From positions 1 to 23,355 of the IMG/VR virus record IMGVR_UViG_3300020178_000262: 23,355 nucleotides of DNA. One strand, 5' to 3'. The translations under genes and the position numbers were made by a program. The stretch is from a virus. A model generated the notes under the pieces. That model saw only the letters and a program-made list of their open reading frames with translations. It had not been told where the DNA came from and made no database searches. Below are positions 2,938 through 23,142 of the stretch, one piece after another; position 1 is the stretch's first letter, and every line of letters begins with the position of its first letter.

Positions 2938-5900
2938 TTATCTTTCTTTGATCTTAATGCCTTGTGTTGTTAGAATATCTTCTAACTCTTGGATCGCTCT
3001 AACGATACTACTAACGTCAATCTCTTGAGTACCTGTATTACCACCTCCACCGGCAGCTTGAGCTCGAGGAGCAGGTGCAGGACTACTGTCACTACTAAAG
3101 AATCCTGTAAGTTTATCCACAAGATTAGAAGCAGCGTTCGAGATGCTAGATGAAGCTTGATTGTTTGTATCACCGGCTTCAGCAACAGTACCTTCAAAGT
3201 CAGCGATCATACTTGCTAGTTCTTTAACTGCGAGGATCAGCTTATCTCCAAGTTGAGCAAGAGCATTGTTTTTACCAGCGCTAGCAAGATATGCTAGAGC
3301 CTTAAACATGTCAGTAGATGCCTTAATTGCTTCTACGTTCATTGAATTTGAATGTGCTGCAATTTGACCGTATGCACCAGCAACTTTTGTCATTGAACTT
3401 GCATAAGTTTTCAGATATGCATTCATATCTGAAATTCCTAGTGCTTTTGCTGATTCAGGACCAATTGGTTGTACAACCGCATTTACAAGTTTACCTATTT
3501 TTTCAACAGCACCACCAGCAACAAGTCGCGTAAATTTACCAAATGCATCGGCAATCATGTGAAGTGGTTCTGCAAGTGTCTTTAGTTTAGGTGCCAGTTC
3601 AGCAAGTTTAGTAAGTATTTCAAGAGGCGAAGGTTGATCTCCTCCAAATAAACCTGCAATACCTTTTAAAAGACCTCCAATAAGTTCACCAGCTCCTCCA
3701 ACTACGCTTGCACCTGCAGTTGCTCCTACAAAGACTAACCATGCAACACCCAGTGCTGCTACGCCTAATGCAAGACTTAATAGATTGTCAACACCGAGTT
3801 CATTCTTGATTCTTGCGAATGCATCGATGATAGCATTGATCGGTGTCATCAAGGCATCTGTAAAGTTTTTCGAGATAGCACCTAAATCTGGCATAGCGCT
3901 TAAGATCCAGGCAACTGCTAACATACCTGCTGCGATTACAATCATACCAACCACACCTAATAAAAGACCTACTGCACCAATACCGCTTGTTGCAATCAAG
4001 CCAATAACAAGTGCGGGTACTGTAAATAATACAAGTGAAAGTGCAACTGCCATACTCCAGTCCATTGGAGGTGCACTGTTAAAACTATCTGGCATCCATG
4101 TAAATATCCATGCTACACCAACTATTGCAAGTGCAACTACAACCATACCGATTGCTCCTTTTAGCATACCGCCGTAGCCAATTCCCATCTTGTCGAATAA
4201 CATAGTCAGAACTGCAAATGAGATACCAAATGCTAAGATAGCTATACCTGAACTTTTAGACCATTCGATCGGAGGTGCACTCCAGGTGCCTTCTAGGAAT
4301 GAGAATATCCAAGACACTGCGCTGATGGTTACTGCAACTAGAATAGTCGCCAGAGCACCTTTAAACATATCATTGTAGCCAACTCTAAATTTAGCAAAGA
4401 GTACGGTAAGTATTGCAAACGGCGCTCCGAATGCTAAGAGTGCAAGACCAGCTGTTTGTGTCCATTCTACTGGAGGCGCATTCCAGGTATTGCCTAACAT
4501 ACCGAATATGAATGAAATACCTACGATTGAGGCTGCAATAGCCGCCATCGCTACGGCACCTTTAGCAATATCTTTAAAGCCAACCTTTCTTGACTGTAAA
4601 GCTTTAGTAACTAAGGCGTATGTAATACCAAATGCCAGTATTGAAAGACCAGCAGTCAACGACCAAAGAGGTGGTGGTGCGATCCATGTGTTACCTAAAG
4701 CGCCAAAGATATATGCAATACCGGTAACTGATGCTGCAATAGCCAACATTGCAGCTCCACCTTTAGCAATATCTTTAAAGCCAACTCTTCTTGATTTTAA
4801 GGCTTTAGTAACTAGAGCATATGTAATTCCGAATGCAAGTATATTTAAACCTGCTTTAAGTGACCATTCTACAGGTGGTGTTTTATATGTACCTGGTAAG
4901 AGTGAAAAAGCTAACGCTGTCGCAACTATACCTGCTGCAATTATTGGTATAATTAAAGAAGATTGTAAAGTATCTTTTATGTTCATTTTACCAGGCCTGC
5001 TATTGCCAGCTCTAAGGAAACCTTTACTACCCCTAGACTTTCCTTTCATTAGTTGAACAACTAAGCCTAACGCAGTTCCGAATATGAGAACAGCTATACC
5101 TGCTGTAAAGACAAATGCAAGTGTATTACCTGTAATATTTGGAATTCCTACTGATTCAAGAGCTTTAAATGCAAGAGCAGCTGAGACAATACCTATTGCT
5201 ATCATTGGTATCACTAACGCTGACATAACTATATCATTCTTTGATAATTTAGCTGGTTTTGATTTTGCAGTTCCAGTAAGATTCATTAGTCCTGGCGTCT
5301 CAGTCTGTTTACCTTTTACCATACTGACCACCATACCAATCGTAACACCAAAAGCAAGAATTGCTAAACCAGCAATTGCGATGAATTTAATCAGACCTGT
5401 ATAGTCTAGACTATTCATGGCTGTAATTCCTTTTTGTAAGTAAGGTGCTGCCTTTGCAAGAGCTACTGCCATTAAACCACCAATAGCAAGGTAGGTTACT
5501 GCTTTAAGAGCAAAGATACCTATTCCTTTAAGATCCATCTTCTGGTTTCTTTTCCTAGAATTATCCCTTTTAAGGAGTGATTCGGTCTCGCTACCTCTCT
5601 TAGAAACTACAACCTCTTTAGCTAGTAATGTTAAACTTGACATAAGTGCAACTACACCTGCTATCGGCACCAATATTTTAATTAGACCTTCAACCTTGGC
5701 AACGTCAGCATCAGTTACATTAATCGCAGCAAGCGCACGTGCTGCTAATCCAACTGGAATTAAAGCAAGTGCCATGGCGGCCATTGTAGCCCCTAATAGA
5801 GCAACCTGTCTTGGGCCAATCTTATTTAACATCGGTAACGCAAATCTAACAACAAAAAGTGCTCCAGCAAGTGGTATCATTGCTGCAGATGCAATTACAA

Positions 5901-6690
5901 ACGATGCCGCAGTTTTAGGGCTAACATCGGGCATCATACTTACTGCTCCTGCAATAATGATAGTATTTAATGACATAACTACCATTGCCTGCATGATCTC
6001 ATTAGTGTTGTTTGCGTTCAAGAACTTATTCATTAAACCCGAGAACTGCCATGCATTGATTAATTGAATAAAAATCTGACCCTGTATATAGAGTGCTGCA
6101 GAGATTGCTATAAATGTTAAAAGTTTAGAACCATCTGGAGTAGCCATACCTGCAAGTGCATATGATGTTGCAACTACCATGGTTACCATGGCCATAATAC
6201 CTGCTGTAAAAATTAAAAGTTTCTGTGTCGATCGAAAAAGACCGTCACCTGATTCACCGTTTAATAAAGGCTCAATCGCTTTCATCATAGGTACTAAACC
6301 TGCCATGATTAGAGTACCCATGGCTATGTCTTTTACAGAAACACCGCGCGTTGCTTGGAATGCCTGTGATAATGTGAATACACCAAAGCCAACCACTGCA
6401 ATTAAGCCACCAAGACCTAGCATCTTTTCAATAGTAATACCAGTCTTTAGTTTGGCTCCTTGATCGACGGTCTTTTTCATAAGAACGTCTTTAATGTCTT
6501 TAAGTACTGCTGTATTTTCTGCTATACTAGCGGCTAGACCAGAAGTAACAGAAAGACTAGTCTTTGAGATTTCCTCAATCCTAGTCATTGACTCCTTAGT
6601 CTCAGCAGCAATATACTCAATCTTCGATAGTAAAGAATTAGTGCTTATTGCATGGCCAATGAGTATCTTATCAGTATTTTGATTTGCCAT
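2938..6690 (-). CDS. probable tail tape measure protein, repetitive and hydrophobic, 1250 aa
   Basis: The N-terminus (1-75) is polar and helical. Residues about 85-1000 are a chain of hydrophobic helical segments rich in Ala, Gly, Ile and Val. Residues 1020-1180 are amphipathic helix, followed by a Ser/Pro/Gly-rich linker (about 1198-1220) and a short C-terminal coiled coil (1224-1250). Five copies of a 67-residue unit run from about 605 to 878, marked by PPVEW-type motifs with tryptophans at 609, 676, 743, 810 and 878. Two more diverged copies of the AGLAILAFG core sit at about 440 and 530. Size, hydrophobic segments and position just after tail tube and gp26-like genes fit a tape measure, which sets tail length and may cross the host membrane on infection. 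T4 gp29 is only 590 aa and I see no direct similarity, so another large tail or membrane protein remains possible. Confidence 0.55.
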   Translation of the reverse strand: MANQNTDKILIGHAISTNSLLSKIEYIAAETKESMTRIEEISKTSLSVTSGLAASIAENTAVLKDIKDVLMKKTVDQGAKLKTGITIEKMLGLGGLIAVVGFGVFTLSQAFQATRGVSVKDIAMGTLIMAGLVPMMKAIEPLLNGESGDGLFRSTQKLLIFTAGIMAMVTMVVATSYALAGMATPDGSKLLTFIAISAALYIQGQIFIQLINAWQFSGLMNKFLNANNTNEIMQAMVVMSLNTIIIAGAVSMMPDVSPKTAASFVIASAAMIPLAGALFVVRFALPMLNKIGPRQVALLGATMAAMALALIPVGLAARALAAINVTDADVAKVEGLIKILVPIAGVVALMSSLTLLAKEVVVSKRGSETESLLKRDNSRKRNQKMDLKGIGIFALKAVTYLAIGGLMAVALAKAAPYLQKGITAMNSLDYTGLIKFIAIAGLAILAFGVTIGMVVSMVKGKQTETPGLMNLTGTAKSKPAKLSKNDIVMSALVIPMIAIGIVSAALAFKALESVGIPNITGNTLAFVFTAGIAVLIFGTALGLVVQLMKGKSRGSKGFLRAGNSRPGKMNIKDTLQSSLIIPIIAAGIVATALAFSLLPGTYKTPPVEWSLKAGLNILAFGITYALVTKALKSRRVGFKDIAKGGAAMLAIAASVTGIAYIFGALGNTWIAPPPLWSLTAGLSILAFGITYALVTKALQSRKVGFKDIAKGAVAMAAIAASIVGISFIFGMLGNTWNAPPVEWTQTAGLALLAFGAPFAILTVLFAKFRVGYNDMFKGALATILVAVTISAVSWIFSFLEGTWSAPPIEWSKSSGIAILAFGISFAVLTMLFDKMGIGYGGMLKGAIGMVVVALAIVGVAWIFTWMPDSFNSAPPMDWSMAVALSLVLFTVPALVIGLIATSGIGAVGLLLGVVGMIVIAAGMLAVAWILSAMPDLGAISKNFTDALMTPINAIIDAFARIKNELGVDNLLSLALGVAALGVAWLVFVGATAGASVVGGAGELIGGLLKGIAGLFGGDQPSPLEILTKLAELAPKLKTLAEPLHMIADAFGKFTRLVAGGAVEKIGKLVNAVVQPIGPESAKALGISDMNAYLKTYASSMTKVAGAYGQIAAHSNSMNVEAIKASTDMFKALAYLASAGKNNALAQLGDKLILAVKELASMIADFEGTVAEAGDTNNQASSSISNAASNLVDKLTGFFSSDSSPAPAPRAQAAGGGGNTGTQEIDVSSIVRAIQELEDILTTQGIKIKER
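4057..4878 (-). repeat. 201-bp coding tandem repeats (67 aa unit) in the tape-measure candidate
   Basis: The strongest repeats lie between codons 605 and 878. Each unit has a proline-proline-acid/leucine-tryptophan motif, then an AGL-x-ILAFGITYAL-type hydrophobic helix, a short basic turn (SRRVGFKDIAKG in the best pair) and a second hydrophobic helix ending in LGNTW or a variant. The tryptophan spacing is 67, 67, 67 and 68 residues. Units 1 and 2 are nearly identical in the turn region, while units 4 and 5 have drifted. Diverged copies upstream extend the array to about base 5382. Confidence 0.8.
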
Positions 6691-6705: not shown

Positions 6706-7152
6706 TTATACAGATCTTTTAGCTTCTTGCTTAGCAGCTTTCAGTATTTTAGTCAGCTCATCACTGTCCATAGATGCTAATTCTTGCTCTAGATCCTTTC
6801 TTGTTCTTGAATCTTTCTCAAAGTCAGATATAGTTCGATCATCAGATTCTCTCTTATCTATTAGACTTTCTATTTGAGCTTGAATCTGATCTACTTTCTC
6901 TTGAGCTTCAGCTGCATGATGGTCTAGACCCTGTCTTTCCAGCTTTTTAACTTTAGCCTCTGCCTTCTTCTTAAGCTTTTCAAGTTCTTTAAGATTGGCC
7001 TTTGAGATCTTTCTATTCATGTAAGCATTTTTGATCTGTGGACCAAAAGCAATACCTATACCTGCAATAGCAAATGCTAGTGTAATAGGGTCTACGAACT
7101 CATTAATCATAGCCTCATTTAAGAACTGGTTATAGCCTTTAATCTTCTTCAT
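6706..7152 (-). CDS. membrane-anchored coiled-coil protein with capsid-targeting-like leader, 148 aa
   Basis: Function unrecognised. The N-terminus MKKIKGYNQFLNEA resembles the T4 capsid-targeting peptide MKTYQEFIAE|A, which gp21 protease cleaves after Glu. Residues about 20-40 form one hydrophobic helix (DPITLAFAIAGIGIAFG). Residues about 50-145 are a highly charged Lys/Glu/Arg coiled coil. The gene is preceded by a GATATATA late-promoter candidate (7172-7181) and ends 15 bases before the 1250-aa gene, so the two form one late unit. A small internal head or tail-associated protein is a reasonable guess. The leader similarity is seen in the sequence; packaging into heads is inferred. Confidence 0.8.
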   Translation of the reverse strand: MKKIKGYNQFLNEAMINEFVDPITLAFAIAGIGIAFGPQIKNAYMNRKISKANLKELEKLKKKAEAKVKKLERQGLDHHAAEAQEKVDQIQAQIESLIDKRESDDRTISDFEKDSRTRKDLEQELASMDSDELTKILKAAKQEAKRSV

Positions 7153-7171: not shown

Positions 7172-7181
7172 TGTATATATC
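7172..7181 (-). promoter_or_regulatory. putative late promoter (GATATATA) for the 148-aa / tape-measure unit
   Basis: GATATATACA on the minus strand, starting 29 bases before the ATG at 7152. It is one of six copies of this octamer placed 27-41 bases before late-type genes in the window. It also lies just beyond the terminator of the preceding unit (7186-7217), as expected where one transcription unit ends and the next begins. Confidence 0.6.
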
Positions 7182-7185
7182 ACAC

Positions 7186-7217
7186 AAAAAAATAAGGAGA
7201 CGCAGGGTCCCCTTATT
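7186..7217 (-). terminator. rho-independent terminator after the gp26-like / overlapping ORF unit
   Basis: On the minus strand AATAAGGGGA (7217-7208) can pair with TCTCCTTATT (7200-7191) over 10 positions with one G-T wobble, around a 7-base loop. A T-rich tract follows at 7192-7186. It begins 8 bases after the stop of the 90-aa ORF. Confidence 0.8.
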
Positions 7218-7224
7218 CTTTAGT

Positions 7225-7497
7225 TTACATTTTCGGAACTTTGATATTAGGTACCTTGATATTAGGTACTTTCATTCCGCTTGCAGCTCCGCCTGCTGCT
7301 TCGTTTTGGCTCTTGTTCGCCTCGTTCTCTTTCTTTAAGTCGTCAATTAAATCTTTGACAATGTAATGGTATTCATAGTATTCCATCTCGTTAAGCTCTG
7401 ATGGCTGTATATGGAGATGTTTATACACATAAAACCTAACTTTAAAGAAGTTCTTGAGAGAGATCTTGAACAATGAAAAGAGATTTGATGCCGTCAC
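7225..7497 (-). CDS. tail-assembly chaperone-like extension, probably made by +1 frameshifting from the gp26-like gene
   Basis: This 90-codon frame overlaps the end of the gp26-like gene by 56 bases, in the +1 frame. As a separate gene it could only start at GTG 7497 or a weaker codon; the first in-frame ATG is codon 38, too late to include the conserved-looking core KVRFYVYKHLHIQPSELNEM (codons 19-38). That core begins exactly after a CTT_TAA sequence at the end of the upstream gene, so a +1 slip there would give a fusion of about 405 residues. Residues 19-60 are helical and charged. Residues 61-75 are an Ala/Gly linker. Residues 76-90 are a KVPNI-type repeat. The position, after tail tube and before the tape measure, matches tail-assembly chaperones. 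Frameshifting is inferred, not shown. Confidence 0.6.
   Translation of the reverse strand: MTASNLFSLFKISLKNFFKVRFYVYKHLHIQPSELNEMEYYEYHYIVKDLIDDLKKENEANKSQNEAAGGAASGMKVPNIKVPNIKVPKM
7228..7272 (-). repeat. 15-bp repeats encoding a KVPNI repeat tail
   Basis: The last 15 codons of the 90-aa frame read KVPNI KVPNI KVPKM, so a 15-base unit is present twice in full and once diverged. Adjacent copies differ by one base (ACTTTGATATTAGGT against ACCTTGATATTAGGT on the plus strand). Confidence 0.85.
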
Positions 7498-12343: not shown

Positions 12344-14173
12344 TTACTTCAGTAGATCGTAAATATCGAATTGTAAATCTCCTTGTGCGTCATTGTCTTT
12401 ATAGAGTACTCTTTCCATCTCTGTGTGTAGGCTATCATCAATCACGTCAAGTAGTTCTTCAATGTAGTCTGCGTAGTCAGTTGTGTTTAAAAATTCAGTC
12501 GCAGTAATGGCAGTAATGATAATATCGTCATGTCCCATTTGAGCTGCATAACCACCACTTCTACCTTTACCAAAAAGACTAGCTTCTTGTACTGTTTCTT
12601 CGTCTGTTATATTTATTCTATTGTTCTTATATAATTTTGCAAAGTTCTGACAGAAAATTGCTTTATTATCTGCTTTTAATTTAATACCTGGTTTAAGAGT
12701 TCTAGAATCATGTCTGTGTTTAAATCTTACAATCATCTCATCGTCAAAGTCATTTCTTTGTGGAAACACGGTTGATAGGTATTTGAATAAGACTGTACCG
12801 TAAGTATTGTATTCCACAATCATCTTCACGTTTTCGTTGTAGAAGACTTCAACTGCTAAAGTATAAAGTATCTTTGCAAAGTCTTCAATCACATGTTCAT
12901 TACTTCTAAAACGACCAACCTGCTCTAGTTTAAAAAAGTCATACATTGCACCTGGATTATTTACCAGGTTAATCTCTTTGGTGGTCATCGGTTGAATCTC
13001 AAAGATATTAATTACCGAGAAGTCACCACCGTTACCTTCAGCAATATCTACTGTAAATAGCCAGTAGCGATCTTCGGTTCTACACTCTTCAACGTCAAAA
13101 TCTGGGTGGAATTCTAAGAAGCCTTCCACATCAATGCTAATATCTTCGAATTGATCTAGCTCTCGACTGACGTATTTTGTTTTTGACTTACGCATCTTCT
13201 TTAAGTCAACCGGGTCTAAGAGTAAATTAGATGAACTAACAAACTCATTACCATACTGTCTATTAAAAGCTTCAATAGAACCTAAATTCGCGAGCTCTCT
13301 ATTGTACCATTCATCATCTCTGTCTGGGTGTTCCCACCAGTCAATTCGCATTGGGTGATATTCATTCTCATTTCGTTCCGCAGCAGCATAGATCTGATAG
13401 AACTTATTAAAACCATTTGGTGTTGAAGTAATCGTGATCCTTGATACCTTAGATGCTGAAAGCGTTGGATAAACGTTTTCATAGAACGCATCTACAATCG
13501 CAGGGTGAATATGTGCGAACTCATCTAGGAACAGGTTATGAATGGTAAAACCAATACCTGCTTTTGCTGTAGTTGATTGACCGGCCAGGCGACAACCGTT
13601 GTCACATCGCACGTTCATTACATCATACTTGATAATACCAGGCTTCATAAAGAAAGGTAAGTTCTCAACAACAACCTTAGTCTTATCAATAATTTCTTTT
13701 GTAGTATCTGACTTGTTTGCCAGAATTAGTGTATTCTTATCTGTATTAAATATTAAGTACCATGCATTATAGATTGATGCTGTAATTGTCTTACCCATCT
13801 GTCTGGATGCTAGTACAATATTAAAACGTTCATGTTGAAAATTACGTAACATACGCTTCTGGTAGTCACGCAGCATAACGTTTTTAATTCCATCATCTGT
13901 CATTACTACTGCATATTTCTCTGCAAAGTAGACAATGTCAGTGGCACATTTTGCCAGCTCTGAAATCTCAGCGTCGGTATATTCAAAGACGATGTTACCT
14001 CGGCGCAGGAATTGTTTACCCTCATAGAAAGGCATCTTCACTTTAGGTCTATACCCTTGGTCAAGTGCTAACAAAAGGTCATTAATCTGCTTAGTAGACC
14101 AGACAATACGGTCCGAGTCCACATCAGATTCACCCTTTGGGATCCATTTGTTATCTCCTACGTAATCGCTCAT
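12344..14173 (-). CDS. 17: terminase large subunit (packaging ATPase-nuclease), T4 gp17-like, 609 aa
   Basis: It powers DNA translocation into the prohead at the portal and cuts the concatemer. ATPase domain: Walker A LASRQMGKT at 121-129, very close to the T4 form SRQLGKT; Walker B NLFLDEFA at 213-220 with Asp217 and catalytic Glu218; coupling motif TITSTPNG at 247-254. Nuclease domain (RNase H fold): Asp376 in LFTVDIAEG, Glu454 in MIVEYNTYG and Asp549/Asp550 in GHDDIIIT supply the expected acidic cluster. Length equals T4 gp17 (610 aa). It follows the 115-aa gene after 2 bases in the gp16 operon and precedes gp18 as in T4. All key residues are intact, so it should be functional. Confidence 0.95.
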   Translation of the reverse strand: MSDYVGDNKWIPKGESDVDSDRIVWSTKQINDLLLALDQGYRPKVKMPFYEGKQFLRRGNIVFEYTDAEISELAKCATDIVYFAEKYAVVMTDDGIKNVMLRDYQKRMLRNFQHERFNIVLASRQMGKTITASIYNAWYLIFNTDKNTLILANKSDTTKEIIDKTKVVVENLPFFMKPGIIKYDVMNVRCDNGCRLAGQSTTAKAGIGFTIHNLFLDEFAHIHPAIVDAFYENVYPTLSASKVSRITITSTPNGFNKFYQIYAAAERNENEYHPMRIDWWEHPDRDDEWYNRELANLGSIEAFNRQYGNEFVSSSNLLLDPVDLKKMRKSKTKYVSRELDQFEDISIDVEGFLEFHPDFDVEECRTEDRYWLFTVDIAEGNGGDFSVINIFEIQPMTTKEINLVNNPGAMYDFFKLEQVGRFRSNEHVIEDFAKILYTLAVEVFYNENVKMIVEYNTYGTVLFKYLSTVFPQRNDFDDEMIVRFKHRHDSRTLKPGIKLKADNKAIFCQNFAKLYKNNRINITDEETVQEASLFGKGRSGGYAAQMGHDDIIITAITATEFLNTTDYADYIEELLDVIDDSLHTEMERVLYKDNDAQGDLQFDIYDLLK

Positions 14174-14175
14174 TC

Positions 14176-14523
14176 TTAGTCTTCTTTTTCGTCAACTAGG
14201 TACATGAAGTTAGATGGGATAACCATCTTTTGTATTTTTAGAGCTTTGAGTAAAAGGCCAACAATTAAGCCACCTGGCATAACTGCTATTGCACTTAACC
14301 CAATAGTCTTTAATACATCTTTAAGTTGATTGCCAATTTCTGTGCGCTCTTCGTCTGTTATCTCTTCTCCATGTCTTACGGATCTGTAGATTTTAGAAAA
14401 GGCATCTTTAGTTTCTTTACTCTCTTTTGCAAGAGCTTTAAAGAATTTAGAAGTTGACTTACCTAAACTTTTTAAACGTGTGTCCTCATTAACAAAACCT
14501 TCAAATAATTGTACTTTTCTCAT
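14176..14523 (-). CDS. unknown 115-aa protein with capsid-targeting-like leader and LETM1-like segment
   Basis: Inserted between the two terminase genes, with 2-base spacers on both sides. The N-terminus MRKVQLFEGFVNE|D has the same F/Y-x-x-F-hydrophobic-x-Glu pattern as the T4 capsid-targeting peptide and as the 148-aa protein at 7152. The middle is Lys-rich and helical. Residues about 57-95 (ITDEERTEIGNQLKDVLKT followed by IGLSAIAVMPGG and a hydrophobic helix) recall the LETM1-like domain seen in many Bacteroidota proteins; I hold that weakly. One membrane-like helix lies at about 75-95. It may be an internal head protein that is cleaved by the prohead protease; placement in the packaging operon fits but does not prove this. 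T4 has no gene here. Confidence 0.75.
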   Translation of the reverse strand: MRKVQLFEGFVNEDTRLKSLGKSTSKFFKALAKESKETKDAFSKIYRSVRHGEEITDEERTEIGNQLKDVLKTIGLSAIAVMPGGLIVGLLLKALKIQKMVIPSNFMYLVDEKED

Positions 14524-14525
14524 CT

Positions 14526-15194
14526 TTATATTTCATCTGTTTCTACATCTTCAACATCTTCGATGTCTTCAATGTCTTGTTGGTTAATACCTTGCTGGAT
14601 GGCATGCATTAGGTCTTTAGTTCCACGCTGTACGTTTCTGCTGCTACTGTCACCACCGGCTTCTTCAATCTCACGTTTGTCATCTCTCTTCTTATAGATC
14701 TCAATATCACGTGCTATTCTTTTAGTAGCCTCTTCAGCTGCCATCAGGTACATGGTTTGAGATTTGATGATGTCTAACATTGATTTCTGCAGAGTTGCAA
14801 GTACTTCAAACATTCTTGGTGCTAATTCACCATCGTCAATTGTTTGTAGCAATGTAGTCAGGGCTCTTTCACCAGCTTGGAGCTGATAGATTAATGATGA
14901 CATTGTCATCTCATCCATCTTCTTTTTGGCTTGAATATATTCATCTTTCTCGATAATATCTGCATCGAGATAGAATTTCATTAGACTTGTAATGGTCTTC
15001 TTGGCCTTCTTGGTTGAGCTTGCTTTCATCTCACCATAGTTAGCCGGAGCCATTAGTTGTGTGTTTCTCTGTGTTGCTGGCAGGTCTCTTGGATCAGACT
15101 CAACGTCAATTGAGTCTTCGTCACCGATTAGATTATCAAGTTCACGTCTAATCTCGTCTGCCTGCTCAGATATACTTCTTTTATCTTCGCTCAT
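14526..15194 (-). CDS. 16: terminase small subunit, T4 gp16-like, 222 aa
   Basis: It recognises phage DNA and stimulates the gp17 ATPase. The central region aligns by eye with T4 gp16: ELAPRMFEVLATLQKSMLDIIKSQTMYLMAAEEATKRI (about 122-160) against the T4 'SPRHMEVFATLMGQM' helical pair, the part that forms the oligomerisation coiled coil. The N-terminal 65 residues are acidic and probably flexible, with an extra helical segment (TITSLMKFYLDADIIEKDEYIQAKKKMDE) compared with the 164-aa T4 protein. The C-terminus ends in an acidic run (EDIEDVEDVETDE). It is the first gene of the gp16-115aa-gp17 operon and has a GATATATA element at 15212-15221. Confidence 0.8.
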   Translation of the reverse strand: MSEDKRSISEQADEIRRELDNLIGDEDSIDVESDPRDLPATQRNTQLMAPANYGEMKASSTKKAKKTITSLMKFYLDADIIEKDEYIQAKKKMDEMTMSSLIYQLQAGERALTTLLQTIDDGELAPRMFEVLATLQKSMLDIIKSQTMYLMAAEEATKRIARDIEIYKKRDDKREIEEAGGDSSSRNVQRGTKDLMHAIQQGINQQDIEDIEDVEDVETDEI

Positions 15195-19778: not shown

Positions 19779-20735
19779 TTATTCTCTTACAATAGTCTGG
19801 ATCTCGTATACACAGCTTAACATGGTTACAACAGGATCGATTACATGGACTCTTTGTGCTTGGTGCTTAGCCACTGTAATAATGATCTGTGGTATATGTT
19901 TTACGCTTTGAGATCTTTCTTGTTTTATATATTCGACAAAGTCATCGCCTAGTGTCTGTAAGATGTCATCTGTCTTTGAAGCGTAATTGCTTACCAAGAG
20001 CTGATAGTTCTTAGCTGGATCTGTCTCGTTAAAGATTAGATCAAAAACATCTTTATAGACTGAGTTGAAGCGTTTAACTTCTGCTTCAGTAATATGGTTT
20101 GTGCCTTGTGTTTTATAGCCTTGTAGCTTATTCAAGGTGCTTCTTAGATCTGGGAAGTTACGACGTACAAACTCAACTAATGCTGGTTTTTCAATTGTCA
20201 TCTCTTCTTGGTTACAGATGTTATAAACACGCTTGATATATTTCTTAGTCAATTCAGCCTCTTCTTCCTTGTCAAAGTCAAAGTTAATTACTTCAAATCT
20301 GCTTAAGATTGGATCTGGTAATTTATTGATGTAGTTACATGTTGCAATAAAGCGGCTGTTACTTGCGAATGTTTCCATTGTTGCGCGCAGCGCTTTAAAG
20401 AACTGATCAGATACACCGTCAACCTCATCCAGGATTACAACTTTAAAGCTGCCTGGTTTGTCCATAATTGAAACCGTTGAACAGAAGTCAGTGATTCTAG
20501 TTCTAATCACGTCAACCGAAGTATCTGTTGATGCGTTAATATAAAGATAAGGCAATTCAAACTGATTAACGATTGCTTTAGCTGCTGATGTTTTACCAGT
20601 TCCAGGACTACCTGCAAACAGCATATTCTGAACTAGGCCATCTTTAAACTTATTCATTACACGATCTGGTAAGATCAACTCGCTTAAATCTTTTGGACGA
20701 TACTTCTCTGTGAAGAGCTGGTTTATTGACTGCAT
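19779..20735 (-). CDS. 44: clamp loader large subunit (AAA+ ATPase), T4 gp44-like, 318 aa
   Basis: It loads the sliding clamp onto primer-template DNA using ATP. AAA+ motifs in order: YRPKDLSEL opening typical of RFC/gp44 (12-20), Walker A AGSPGTGKTS (41-50), Walker B VVILDEVD (99-106), sensor 1 RFIATCNY (128-135) and the arginine-finger motif LSRFE (144-148; SRC in most RFC proteins, with Phe in place of Cys here). The C-terminal 130 residues are the helical collar domain. Length matches T4 gp44 (319 aa). It is separated from the nuclease gene by a 74-base gap containing that operon's promoter. Upstream lies a 62-base divergent region shared with the only rightward gene. Confidence 0.93.
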   Translation of the reverse strand: MQSINQLFTEKYRPKDLSELILPDRVMNKFKDGLVQNMLFAGSPGTGKTSAAKAIVNQFELPYLYINASTDTSVDVIRTRITDFCSTVSIMDKPGSFKVVILDEVDGVSDQFFKALRATMETFASNSRFIATCNYINKLPDPILSRFEVINFDFDKEEEAELTKKYIKRVYNICNQEEMTIEKPALVEFVRRNFPDLRSTLNKLQGYKTQGTNHITEAEVKRFNSVYKDVFDLIFNETDPAKNYQLLVSNYASKTDDILQTLGDDFVEYIKQERSQSVKHIPQIIITVAKHQAQRVHVIDPVVTMLSCVYEIQTIVRE

Positions 20736-20741
20736 ATAAAT

Positions 20742-20749
20742 TACTTTTG
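20742..20749 (+). promoter_or_regulatory. possible -7 element for the rightward gene
   Basis: TACTTTTG fits TAnnTTTG, 49 bases before the ATG at 20798, in the 62-base divergent region between gp44 and the rightward gene. A TTG at 20726-20728 is only 13 bases upstream, shorter than usual for Bacteroidota promoters. This match could easily arise by chance in AT-rich DNA. Confidence 0.25.
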
Positions 20750-20797
20750 TATCTTATATGAAAGCTGGCCTCTTAGTTTCACTGATAGATAGTATAT

Positions 20798-21310
20798 ATG
20801 GCTAGATCTTACGCTGACATTAGAATTGAGAGAACCGGTGGTAGTTATCCAATCAACCGATACGGTATTAAACTGAAGCCTCTTCAGAAAAAACACCGCA
20901 GATTCTTAGTTGAGAATAGGCATATTAAAAAGTGGGCGGATGATGACCAGTTCATCCATTGCGTCCTTAGAATGCAAAAAGTCAGCACAAAGGATAGTAC
21001 CGCTTACAAAACATACTTTGATTGGCATTCTAACGCGCCTGTTGACATTAATGGCTTAAAAGAGAGTGCTAATACAATCGACTGGCAATGTGCGCTCAGC
21101 GGCAAACCAATCAAGTCTAAGTTTATGAATTTTGATCTTGAGAACTTTGTCCACCCAGAATACCTAGATGTTTTAAAGGCTCCAATGGTTGACAGCCGAA
21201 TCCTGAAAAGTTCAATTGAGTTTCGCCGTAAATGCAAAGAACTCCTGCTCAATGAGAGACAGGAGTTCCTTATGCTTGCCAAGAAAAACGCTAAGCGTAA
21301 TCTTGAATAA
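20798..21310 (+). CDS. unknown 170-aa protein, the only rightward gene
   Basis: No family recognised. It is basic and soluble, starting MARSYADIRIERTGGSYPINRYGIKLKPLQKKHRRFL in short elements (Arg/Lys-rich, about 1-45), with a central Trp-containing part (FDWHSNAP, TIDWQCALSGKPI) and a C-terminal Lys/Arg-rich helix (RRKCKELLLNERQEFLMLAKKNAKR). The composition suggests nucleic-acid binding but that is not specific. It is accepted as real because it fills the gap between two leftward genes with a long, well-formed frame, while the best minus-strand frame there (21282-21004) is only 92 aa. Its stop is 2 bases from the stop of the convergent 609-aa gene. Confidence 0.75.
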   Translation: MARSYADIRIERTGGSYPINRYGIKLKPLQKKHRRFLVENRHIKKWADDDQFIHCVLRMQKVSTKDSTAYKTYFDWHSNAPVDINGLKESANTIDWQCALSGKPIKSKFMNFDLENFVHPEYLDVLKAPMVDSRILKSSIEFRRKCKELLLNERQEFLMLAKKNAKRNLE

Positions 21311-21312
21311 TA

Positions 21313-23142
21313 TTACATTAAGTTTCTGAATCTATCAGCGATTGAAGCTGATTGAAAACCAAATGACTCAGTAAGAGGTTTACCAGCTGGAACGTTTACA
21401 CTTGAAGTTTCAGTGTAAGGAATAGGTTTAGCTACCCAGACTACGTCATCGTCTGAACCATCTTCTTTCTTACCTTTGAAATCTTTTTGACCTTCATATT
21501 TTGGTTTTTCCTCGTCTTGATCAGTTTCTGCATTTCTAACAGTAACTTTTGCATCTTTTTCTTCAGCAGAAACAACTTTAAACCCTTCATTATCTGCAAT
21601 GAATTCATCAGCTAGTTGTTTAGACGTTTTTTCGTTATTACCGCCACCATCTAGGTCTGTGATTTTTTGTTGAAGTTCAGCAATTTTAGTATCGAACTTA
21701 GCAGAGTCCTCATTGTTTGCTTCTGCATCAGCCTTTTTAGCTTTTTGAGTTGCAATTTGAGCTTCGAAATAAGTTTTCTGTGTTGCTTTAATGTCTTCTT
21801 CACTACCGCTATCCTTAACTAGGTCTAGTTCATTTTTAGCATCATCCTCTGCTTTCTCTGCAGCTTCAATAGCTTCTTCAGTTTTAGTCTTCTTAGAACC
21901 TGCTACTTCCAGAATATCATCATATTCGTTCAGTGCAGCTTCAATGTTACCATCAATATCGTCTTTAATACCTTGTGCTTCTGTTTCTTCTTTAGCAACA
22001 CCAGCGTCAATGAATGTTTTGGCTGAGATTGCACCTTTAGCGGCATTATAGTCTTTCTCTGCTTTCTTGATAGCTGCTACCTGTTCGTCAGATGGATCTT
22101 CAGCATCAACAGCTTTAAGCGCGTTGATAAGAACATTAGACGTAGAATAGAGTGCTTTTAGCTTTTCATTAGCTTTCTTCTCTTTTTCTGAACCGGCCTG
22201 CGCTCTTTTTTCTGATTCCGCCTCTAATTCTTTAAGTTCTGCTTCTCTTTCTGCTTTCTTAGCTTGAGCCTTCTTATTCTCTTCTGCCATTTCTTTGGCA
22301 CCTCTTTCTTTTAATTTTTTAGCAAAATCAGGATTATCTGATTCATCATACTTAAGCTGAACTTCAACTTTATCCATGATATGTTTTTGGTCCATTTCGG
22401 CCTTTATATCGCCTTTAGCTGTAGTCCACCTTTTTTTGATTAGTTCTGCTTCAATTGTATTAGCGTTTTCAAAATCAGTAAGTTTTGTTGTAATGTCTTG
22501 TAATTTTTTAGCGCCCTTTGCTTTAAGCTGTTCAAGTTGAGCATCTAACTTCTTACCAATTTTTGCCTCAATCTTGTCCTTCTGTTCTGCGAAAGCTGCA
22601 TCAATTTGAGCTCTTTGCTCTCTTTTCTTTTCACCAGGAATGTTTAAATCTTTGACTTTAGCCTTCTTAGCGTCAAACTTAGCTTCAACTTTTTTAAGTA
22701 GCTGTTTAATCTTCTCATCTTTTTGTGCTCCGAATTGAGTTTCTGCTTCAAGATTAGCAAGTTCCTGTTTTAATTGAGACTTATATATTTTTGGCCAAGC
22801 TGCACTTAGTTTTGCAAAGTTTTTCATAGACTTGAAAGTCTTCATCATCTCTTCAAAAAACTTATTCTCGTAAATAGGTTGTAAAAGTGCTTCTTCAATA
22901 ATAGCGTCAACTTCTATCATAAGCTCCTCTTCAATTCTATCTGAGAGCTTTGCTAGATTATCAATGATACTGTCTACATCTTGAATAATTTCAGATCTTG
23001 TAGTATCTGAATTACTTGGTTTAGCATCTACTGTAACTTCAGTAGTTTCTTTTTTTACTGTAGCATTATTAGAAACACTTTGATCCACGTTAGCAGTCTC
23101 AAAGTCTTCAAACATTTTTATTCTAGTTTTAAATTTCATCAT
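21313..23142 (-). CDS. Lys/Glu/Ala-rich coiled-coil protein, possible internal head or scaffold-type protein, 609 aa
   Basis: No named family recognised. Residues 20-50 are Ser/Thr/Asn-rich linker. Residues about 50-120 form a helical domain (a FFEEMMKTFKSMKNFAKLSAAWPKIY segment is its most hydrophobic part). Residues about 120-520 are nearly continuous charged coiled coil with many KKAEA-type stretches. Residues about 525-585 form a small beta-rich domain (FKVVSAEEKDAKVTVRN, VVWVAKPIPY). The end, KPLTESFGFQSASIADRFRNLM, looks like a docking tail. No cysteine is present. The start KFKTRIKMFEDFETA weakly recalls the capsid-targeting leaders found on two other proteins here. A GATATATA element precedes it. 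Scaffold/core protein (gp22-like role) or packaged internal protein are the main options. Confidence 0.75.
   Translation of the reverse strand: MMKFKTRIKMFEDFETANVDQSVSNNATVKKETTEVTVDAKPSNSDTTRSEIIQDVDSIIDNLAKLSDRIEEELMIEVDAIIEEALLQPIYENKFFEEMMKTFKSMKNFAKLSAAWPKIYKSQLKQELANLEAETQFGAQKDEKIKQLLKKVEAKFDAKKAKVKDLNIPGEKKREQRAQIDAAFAEQKDKIEAKIGKKLDAQLEQLKAKGAKKLQDITTKLTDFENANTIEAELIKKRWTTAKGDIKAEMDQKHIMDKVEVQLKYDESDNPDFAKKLKERGAKEMAEENKKAQAKKAEREAELKELEAESEKRAQAGSEKEKKANEKLKALYSTSNVLINALKAVDAEDPSDEQVAAIKKAEKDYNAAKGAISAKTFIDAGVAKEETEAQGIKDDIDGNIEAALNEYDDILEVAGSKKTKTEEAIEAAEKAEDDAKNELDLVKDSGSEEDIKATQKTYFEAQIATQKAKKADAEANNEDSAKFDTKIAELQQKITDLDGGGNNEKTSKQLADEFIADNEGFKVVSAEEKDAKVTVRNAETDQDEEKPKYEGQKDFKGKKEDGSDDDVVWVAKPIPYTETSSVNVPAGKPLTESFGFQSASIADRFRNLM

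Follow-up and report, generated by a model that had tools for sequence, protein, structure and literature searches.

Candidate capsid-targeting leaders of the T4 kind on a small phage protein and on many unrelated proteins of its uncultured lineage

The internal proteins of phage T4 are the nearest described counterpart of the protein considered here. According to the available excerpts of two reports, T4 Ip1-3 have only the leader in common and differ in the type IV restriction enzymes that they inhibit (PMC12373910, PMC3012670), and the three proteins enter the host with the DNA by injection (PMC12373910). The same excerpts report at least 10 such leader proteins from related phages (PMC12373910, PMC3012670), so that recognising packaged proteins by their leader is already established for T-even phages. 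In the available part of a further source, residues 4 and 7 of T4 IPIII serve in targeting and residues 8 and 10 in processing, and gp21 cuts after L/I-x-E (PMC9026906). That source also describes many head proteins of phiKZ and SPN3US as cut after Glu by a gp21-like protease, a point of likeness to the lineage examined here; the phiKZ site is S/A-x-E, with other determinants unreported there (PMC9026906), whereas in this lineage [LIV]xE closes a fixed short leader. Searches of the open-access literature in PubMed Central brought up, among the matches listed, no such leader set beyond T4 and its close relatives, which is weak evidence of absence.

We analysed the whole of a 23-kb virus record, IMG/VR IMGVR_UViG_3300020178_000262 (23,355 nucleotides; hereafter the window). 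G002, an IMG/VR record of 176 kb, runs collinear with it, and the two are about 92% identical in DNA (22.5 kb in matched pieces, some overlapping). The terminase of the lineage is 29-30% identical to those of T4-like enterobacterial phages among the matches listed. There was no isolate of the lineage among the best 40 of 2542 terminase records, where the best cultured match reached 33.7%, and the best 12 of 1499 capsid records were all uncultured. A search of genome contigs for host-borne relatives found none.

p148, its leader and its neighbourhood

The window encodes a 148-aa protein, p148, that starts with MKKIKGYNQFLNEAMINEF (Table 1). In its leader, MKKIKGYNQFLNE/A (a slash marks a predicted or known cut, here predicted after Glu13), an aromatic residue, Phe, an aliphatic residue and Glu stand at the same spacing as in the T4 leader MKTYQEFIAE/A. 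Aligned by this spacing, Tyr7, Phe10, Leu11 and Glu13 correspond one-to-one to T4 IPIII positions 4, 7, 8 and 10: Tyr7 and Phe10 match the targeting positions (aromatic plus Phe), and Leu11-Asn12-Glu13 matches the processing positions ([L/I]-x-Glu). As in T4 IPI, IPII and IPIII, the aromatic residue lies six, Phe three and the aliphatic residue two residues before the Glu of the cut.

All six frames of the window were read for M-x(2-14)-[FYW]xx[FYLM][LIVMF]xE, which occurred three times: at the start of p148, at the start of a 115-aa protein, p115, and at an internal Met near the end of p115. The p115 protein starts with MRKVQLFEGFVNED and carries the leader MRKVQLFEGFVNE/D. Both leaders have 13 residues, within the 10-19 of an N-terminal capsid-targeting propeptide, and the occurrence of one leader on several unrelated phage proteins, which also marks such signals, extends to two ORFs within the window alone.

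Table 1. Positions of p148, its parts and other features in the window
Feature	Position	Strand	Basis
p148 (148-aa leader protein)	6706..7152	-	ORF call, ATG start
Capsid-targeting-type leader, p148 residues 1-13, MKKIKGYNQFLNE	7114..7152	-	sequence, motif statistics, T4 residue roles
Ala14 of p148	7111..7113	-	residue after the predicted cut
Hydrophobic segment, p148 residues 18-36, borderline transmembrane	7045..7101	-	Kyte-Doolittle 1.66 over 19 residues
Helical hairpin / coiled coil, p148 residues 37-113	6814..7044	-	AlphaFold2 model
GATATATA, putative late-promoter core	7174..7181	-	22-29 nt before p148 ATG, after hairpin
Terminator-like hairpin between hub-catalyst-like ORF and p148	7187..7221	-	-18.1 kcal/mol, z -5.1, U-rich 3' arm
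Baseplate hub assembly catalyst-like ORF, upstream neighbour of p148	7225..7497	-	phrog_634 E 6.7e-5
Tape-measure-like ORF, 1250 aa, directly downstream of p148	2938..6690	-	place and size; no Pfam match
Large terminase (T4 type)	12344..14173	-	PF03237 E 1.4e-18
p115 (115-aa leader protein)	14176..14523	-	between small-terminase-like and large terminase ORFs
Second leader of the window, MRKVQLFEGFVNE/D, p115 residues 1-13	14485..14523	-	sequence; motif including Asp 14482..14523
Small-terminase-like ORF	14526..15194	-	phrog_735, weak, E 0.0069, and place
609-aa highly charged ORF, N-terminus MMKFKTRIKMFEDFETA	21313..23142	-	sequence

Relatives of p148 were found at five further loci at 91-100% protein identity (96% for the G002 copy). 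The sole substitution among them within the leader, Gln9 to Arg, falls on a free position; because p148 is known only from such close copies, evolution offers little test of its own leader.

The AlphaFold2 model of p148 (mean pLDDT 72.3) has a low-confidence start and two short helices, followed by a helical hairpin (37-73/77-113), with residues 51-100 at 89-93. A short helix lies at residues 22-31, where blocks have a pLDDT of 61-62. The hairpin agrees with the coiled coil proposed in the initial annotation, and the membrane helix proposed there proved borderline, being one 19-residue stretch of modest mean hydropathy. Pfam and PHROG matches of p148 were weak and of coiled-coil type only, and look like coiled-coil noise. 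The tape-measure-like ORF begins 15 nt downstream of p148 on the same strand, which fits the placement of the gene in a tape-measure operon.

The terminator-like hairpin upstream of p148 was absent from the consensus scan output. GATATA occurred within 70 bp upstream of 29/50 structural genes, 25/79 leader genes and 152/1074 other ORFs (those of at least 80 aa); the word was picked by an enriched-word search in the very data used for these counts, and its p values are therefore optimistic. The usual distance to the start was 11-20 nt in leader genes (16/26 sites) and 21-40 nt in structural genes (24/30 sites), and p148 has GATATA at the structural-gene spacing. Because the usual distances differ, GATATA need not be the same signal in the two groups, and one late promoter common to both is only a suggestion. 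The T4 late promoter TATAAATA was not enriched (4/79 leader genes, 2/50 structural genes, 33/1074 other ORFs).

In 40 loci with a recognised p148-upstream gene, the next item was p148 in 5, an ORF of at least 300 aa in 33, a cut-off ORF in 1 and the contig end in 1. A role for p148 as a conserved tape-measure partner was ruled out by its presence in so few of these loci. A p115-family ORF was present at the terminase junction in 2/46 loci; relative L282 has p148 without a p115-family ORF there, and two leader ORFs occupy this junction in the huge phage LR756500. Judged by this distribution, p148 and p115 behave as accessory inserts. HTVC008M gp021 (locus L242, 16021-16353) is a small, leaderless protein encoded beside the tape measure; by eye, its start resembles an EF hand and its helices are hydrophobic.

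Other ORFs of the window were also compared. The 609-aa ORF keeps the F-x-x-F half of the motif without [LI]xE, and its first 72 residues match a 286-aa ORF after the G002 capsid gene (E 2e-10), homologs of which have 513, 534 and 709 aa in relatives. The family of post-capsid ORFs thus ranges from 286 to 709 aa and starts as if targeted and left uncut. A 170-aa ORF (20798-21310), on the opposite strand between a clamp-loader-like gene and the 609-aa ORF, is kept in G002 and has a copy in LR756500 at 27% identity. Downstream of the tape-measure-like gene, the overlapping ORFs 497-1681 and 1668-2669 carry what we take to be glycosyltransferase-like motifs.

Leader counts and labelled proteins across genomes

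The survey for further leaders covered 17 genomes or contigs, whole or nearly whole. The strict motif was [FYW]xxF[LIVM]xE within the first 22 residues, and a wider form admitted Tyr or Trp for Phe. The motif had to begin at residue 4 or later, so that shorter leaders such as MKFQDFLNE were missed. ORFs were called mechanically (longest from ATG/GTG/TTG, at least 40 aa, overlaps removed by length), so that the counts include some ORFs that are no genes and some with a wrong start. Long records were divided into 20-kb pieces with overlaps of 500-1000 bases (50-kb pieces for HTVC008M), and edge-crossing ORFs longer than the overlap were missed. Lineage contigs were selected for length from the 80 best of 305 capsid-gene loci, and several are incomplete genomes.

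The strict motif stood at the start of 13/229 ORFs in G002, against a shuffle mean of 0.24 and a maximum of 3 in 2000 shuffles; the rate within proteins predicts 0.42 N-terminal motifs. With the wider motif the counts were 14/229 in G002, 17/226 in G010, 13/252 in G013, 8/337 in G017, 5/147 in G016, 6/147 in G008, 9/147 in G012, 7/178 in G015 and 22/723 in LR756500, with shuffle means of 0.29-1.91. These nine genomes, eight lineage contigs and LR756500, carry the leader on 101/2386 ORFs vs about 5.5 expected; chance would account for about 5 of the 101.

The 80 best of the 305 capsid-gene loci had the motif on 75/1405 ORFs vs 1.85 expected (56/1105 after identical ORFs were removed) and at least one motif ORF in 53 of the 80. 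The 80 best of 498 tail-tube loci gave 8/944 ORFs, of which p148 or p115 copies make up seven, and the motif is therefore not a general N-terminal feature in these phages. A chance origin of the leader motif was ruled out by the shuffles and internal counts. By these sequence statistics we regard the leader on p148 as real.

The usual leader form was M-K-[HYK]-I-K-[LT]-[FY]-[EN]-[EDQ]-F-[LIV]-N-E, with Glu at residue 13 in 73 of the 101 leaders. The next residue was Ala in 23, Lys in 15, Gly in 11 and Ser in 11. The lineage leader therefore differs from that of T4 in its usual length (13 residues vs 10) and in the residue after the predicted cut, which is mostly not Ala. Neighbouring leader genes differed in codons in G010 and G013, the two genomes looked at.

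Scanned in the same way, T4 had the motif on 4/286 ORFs, compared with 5-17 leader ORFs per lineage contig. The T4 matches included two neighbouring MKTYQEFIAE/A ORFs of 100 and 193 aa, which we take to be IPII and IPIII, and a 54-aa ORF with MKTFKEFIKE/D; IPI was not identified among the four. T4 gp23 shows the same pattern, FGSFLTE/AEI, with Glu at residue 65, presumably the gp23 cut site.

When the part behind residue 20 was compared (E 1e-5), the 101 leader ORFs formed 60 cargo clusters, 19 of which include homologs without the strict motif, many with variant starts. The lineage thus resembles the T4 internal proteins in having the leader on otherwise unrelated proteins in a phage with an S77 protease. 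The mature parts of the 101 cargos showed no similarity to IPI, IPII or IPIII among the matches listed to T4 ORFs (best 8 per cluster), where a single T4 protein appeared, as partner of the 450-aa cargo. A Pfam scan took in 19 of the 101 ORFs (window copies for p148 and p115), and 7 of the 19 were above the cut-off: DUF5661, a GNAT acetyltransferase, a metallopeptidase with vWA domain, a polynucleotide kinase 3'-phosphatase, leucine-rich repeats, an ATP-grasp protein and a cytidylyltransferase-like protein. The labelled proteins of the lineage therefore include recognisable enzymes, unlike the T4 internal proteins. A stretch of hydropathy above 1.6 behind the leader was found only in p148 (1.66) and p115 (1.83) among the 101, and membrane action is therefore not a property of the leader set.

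Two cargo families with leader are common to G002 and LR756500 (44% and 34% identity). In the leaders of a 427-aa cargo family, Phe10 and Glu13 never change, while the next residues vary (n=7, 29-70% identity to the first; an eighth homolog, from G012, was left out, its called start lying upstream of a leader-like start). The search for a solved relative of this family gave a best E of 0.29, none convincing. Its KxDG and EG..K motifs presumably point to a nucleotidyltransferase, which we do not count among the named enzymes. The G002 GNAT ORF has a second, internal leader near residue 106, and a 220-aa G015 homolog begins at that leader, an arrangement consistent with either the fusion of two labelled proteins or internal initiation. 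Internal leaders near residue 106 were noted in G002 ORFs 19947-20867 and 77169-77927 as possible fusions or internal starts. In LR756500, a C-terminal tail resembling NADDFGFFDN is common to 13 ORFs, and 8 of these also have a strict N-terminal leader; the 13 include 13446-14282, 180972-181730 and 197835-198746, and several are leucine-rich repeat proteins. The shared tail is possibly a second, C-terminal label.

Motif counts were low in the other phages compared: PTm1 2/335, PAU 0/332, MaF61 1/232, S-PM2 0/332, HTVC008M 0/210, KVP40 3/433 and P-SSM2 6/395, the last with two convincing-looking leaders, MKSFKQFLEE/A and MKSFSQFLTE/T. Two 50-kb stretches of the 541-kb Lak-A1 phage (TAG read as Gln) had 0 leaders among 77 and 60 ORFs. 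An S77 match was found in PTm1, PAU, S-PM2, HTVC008M, KVP40 and P-SSM2 and not in MaF61. The notion that an S77 protease means leaders was ruled out: presence of the protease does not imply the leader, because four S77 phages (PTm1, PAU, S-PM2 and HTVC008M) carry it at chance level only. Expansion of the leader therefore belongs to this lineage and LR756500 and is not shared by every phage with the protease.

Head protease and scaffold-like region

PF03420 and PF07068 had no match within the 23-kb window, but an S77 protease was found in the collinear G002 (PF03420 at 104823-105182, E 4.9e-14, 48.9 bits vs a cut-off of 27; also phrog_207 head maturation protease, E 1.1e-43) and in 12/12 long lineage contigs tested, 7 of which were read whole or nearly so. 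Through G002, a gp21-type protease accordingly accompanies the leader in the same phage. The G002 gene lies between portal (phrog_213, E 4e-75) and major capsid gene (PF07068 E 1.1e-46), in T4-like order. Likeness to T4 gp21 extends from the Pfam match to Peptidase_S77 to a GELDHP that resembles T4's GELNHP. The ORF between portal and protease occupies the place of T4 gp67/gp68 and bears the strict motif in 4/8 genomes and a variant in 4/8.

The G002 protease ORF (104769-106973) differs from T4 gp21 in length, 734 aa vs 212, with coiled-coil-like repeats and an acidic stretch behind the protease domain. Head protease and scaffold-like region are one ORF in G002, and separate genes 21 and 22 in T4. 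Behind residue 200 the ORF contains 24 [LI]xE vs 10.7 expected (z 4.9), with no excess of [ASG]xE or [KR]xE. T4 gp22, a known gp21 substrate, has 16 [LI]xE vs 5.8 expected (z 4.9; reversed motif z 0.8). Among eight lineage protease ORFs z ranged from 1.1 to 5.6, the excess being absent in G017 (z 1.1). The SbcC-like protein of G002 gave z 2.6, and no [LI]xE excess was seen in the 286-aa post-capsid ORF, its G010 homolog, the 609-aa window ORF, portal or sheath. All eight protease ORFs were enriched in the reversed motif E-x-[LIV] as well (z 1.5 to 4.4), and in G017 and G012 it surpasses forward [LIV]xE; helix (coiled-coil) periodicity therefore explains part of the excess. On balance, the tripeptide counts suggest that the lineage protease cuts after [LI]xE, with which the leader ends.

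Interpretation of the leader set

The explanation we favour, and consider quite probable, is that p148 bears a T4-type capsid-targeting leader, removed by protease and common to a large packaged set, in which p148 is one accessory and probably late member. We consider it very probable that the leader serves as a T4-type packaging signal, and p148 is likely packaged and cleaved. We see p148 as one accessory member of the set because the leader labels 5-17 ORFs per lineage contig and about 20 in LR756500. By its aromatic-x-x-Phe face the leader would attach to the scaffold core and bring p148 into the prohead, where the S77 protease would cut after Glu13 and mature p148, from Ala14, would stay in the head with the DNA. 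Expression would be late, probably from the gene's own promoter and together with the tape-measure-like gene. After ejection, the hydrophobic segment and hairpin might, at a guess, act on the host envelope or DNA entry.

The leader reading of the initial annotation is thus strongly supported: the pattern is real by spacing and by its excess over shuffles, the search for further proteins with the same leader succeeded many times over, and relatives have the gp21-like protease. The cargo role proposed with it, a membrane-active protein delivered with the DNA, is a suggestion from one borderline hydrophobic stretch.

Possible, if less probable, is that the leader directs p148 to head or core as a structural part of core or neck that is not delivered to the host. 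This alternative shares the leader reading with the favoured explanation, and the probabilities we give the two overlap. The p148 gene does lie among tail and packaging genes, and some leader proteins are probably core parts, because a leader ORF lies between portal and protease, the position of gp67/gp68 in T4. However, p148 follows its upstream gene in only 5 of the 40 loci, with a long ORF directly next in 33, and accessory cargo therefore fits better than a structural part.

We think it very unlikely that the N-terminal motif binds something else, such as late transcription machinery or the sliding clamp, and merely resembles the T4 leader. Some bearers are enzymes able to act in the cell (GNAT, polynucleotide kinase 3'-phosphatase), and a tRNA nucleotidyltransferase has a variant start (outside the counts). 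Yet the motif is far more frequent at N-termini than inside proteins, it ends in [LIV]xE, which fits the T4 targeting and processing positions, and the scaffold-like region of the protease ORF is rich in the same tripeptide. Least probable of all is a coincidental leader-like start on a small, otherwise ordinary membrane protein from the tail operon, such as HTVC008M has, without leader, at the position of p148 beside its tape measure, since a chance match occurs in about 1 in 1000 ORFs (0.24 of 229) and twelve other ORFs in the collinear G002 share the start pattern.

Under the favoured explanation of a packaged, protease-processed set, the leader may reveal proteins travelling inside the particle, because relatives carry it on several unrelated proteins each. 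It seems to us rather probable, from sequence comparisons, that a widespread uncultured lineage uses one short N-terminal label to load its head with a large array of exchangeable, injected proteins, and that this payload, with which infection starts, can be read from the genome. The enzymes we name in this payload are the polynucleotide 3'-phosphatase, acetyltransferase, ATP-grasp protein, metallopeptidase with vWA domain and cytidylyltransferase-like protein, in addition to the leucine-rich repeats. The T4 internal proteins are the precedent; new here are the size and enzymatic range of the leader set in a distant lineage, one that reaches hundreds of metagenomic relatives (305 capsid-gene matches). 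If this is true, with the label on 5-20 proteins per genome, dozens of unidentified families would be candidate injected counter-defence or takeover proteins, and the question of which phage proteins are injected would become a sequence search, checkable by the proteomics of one isolate.
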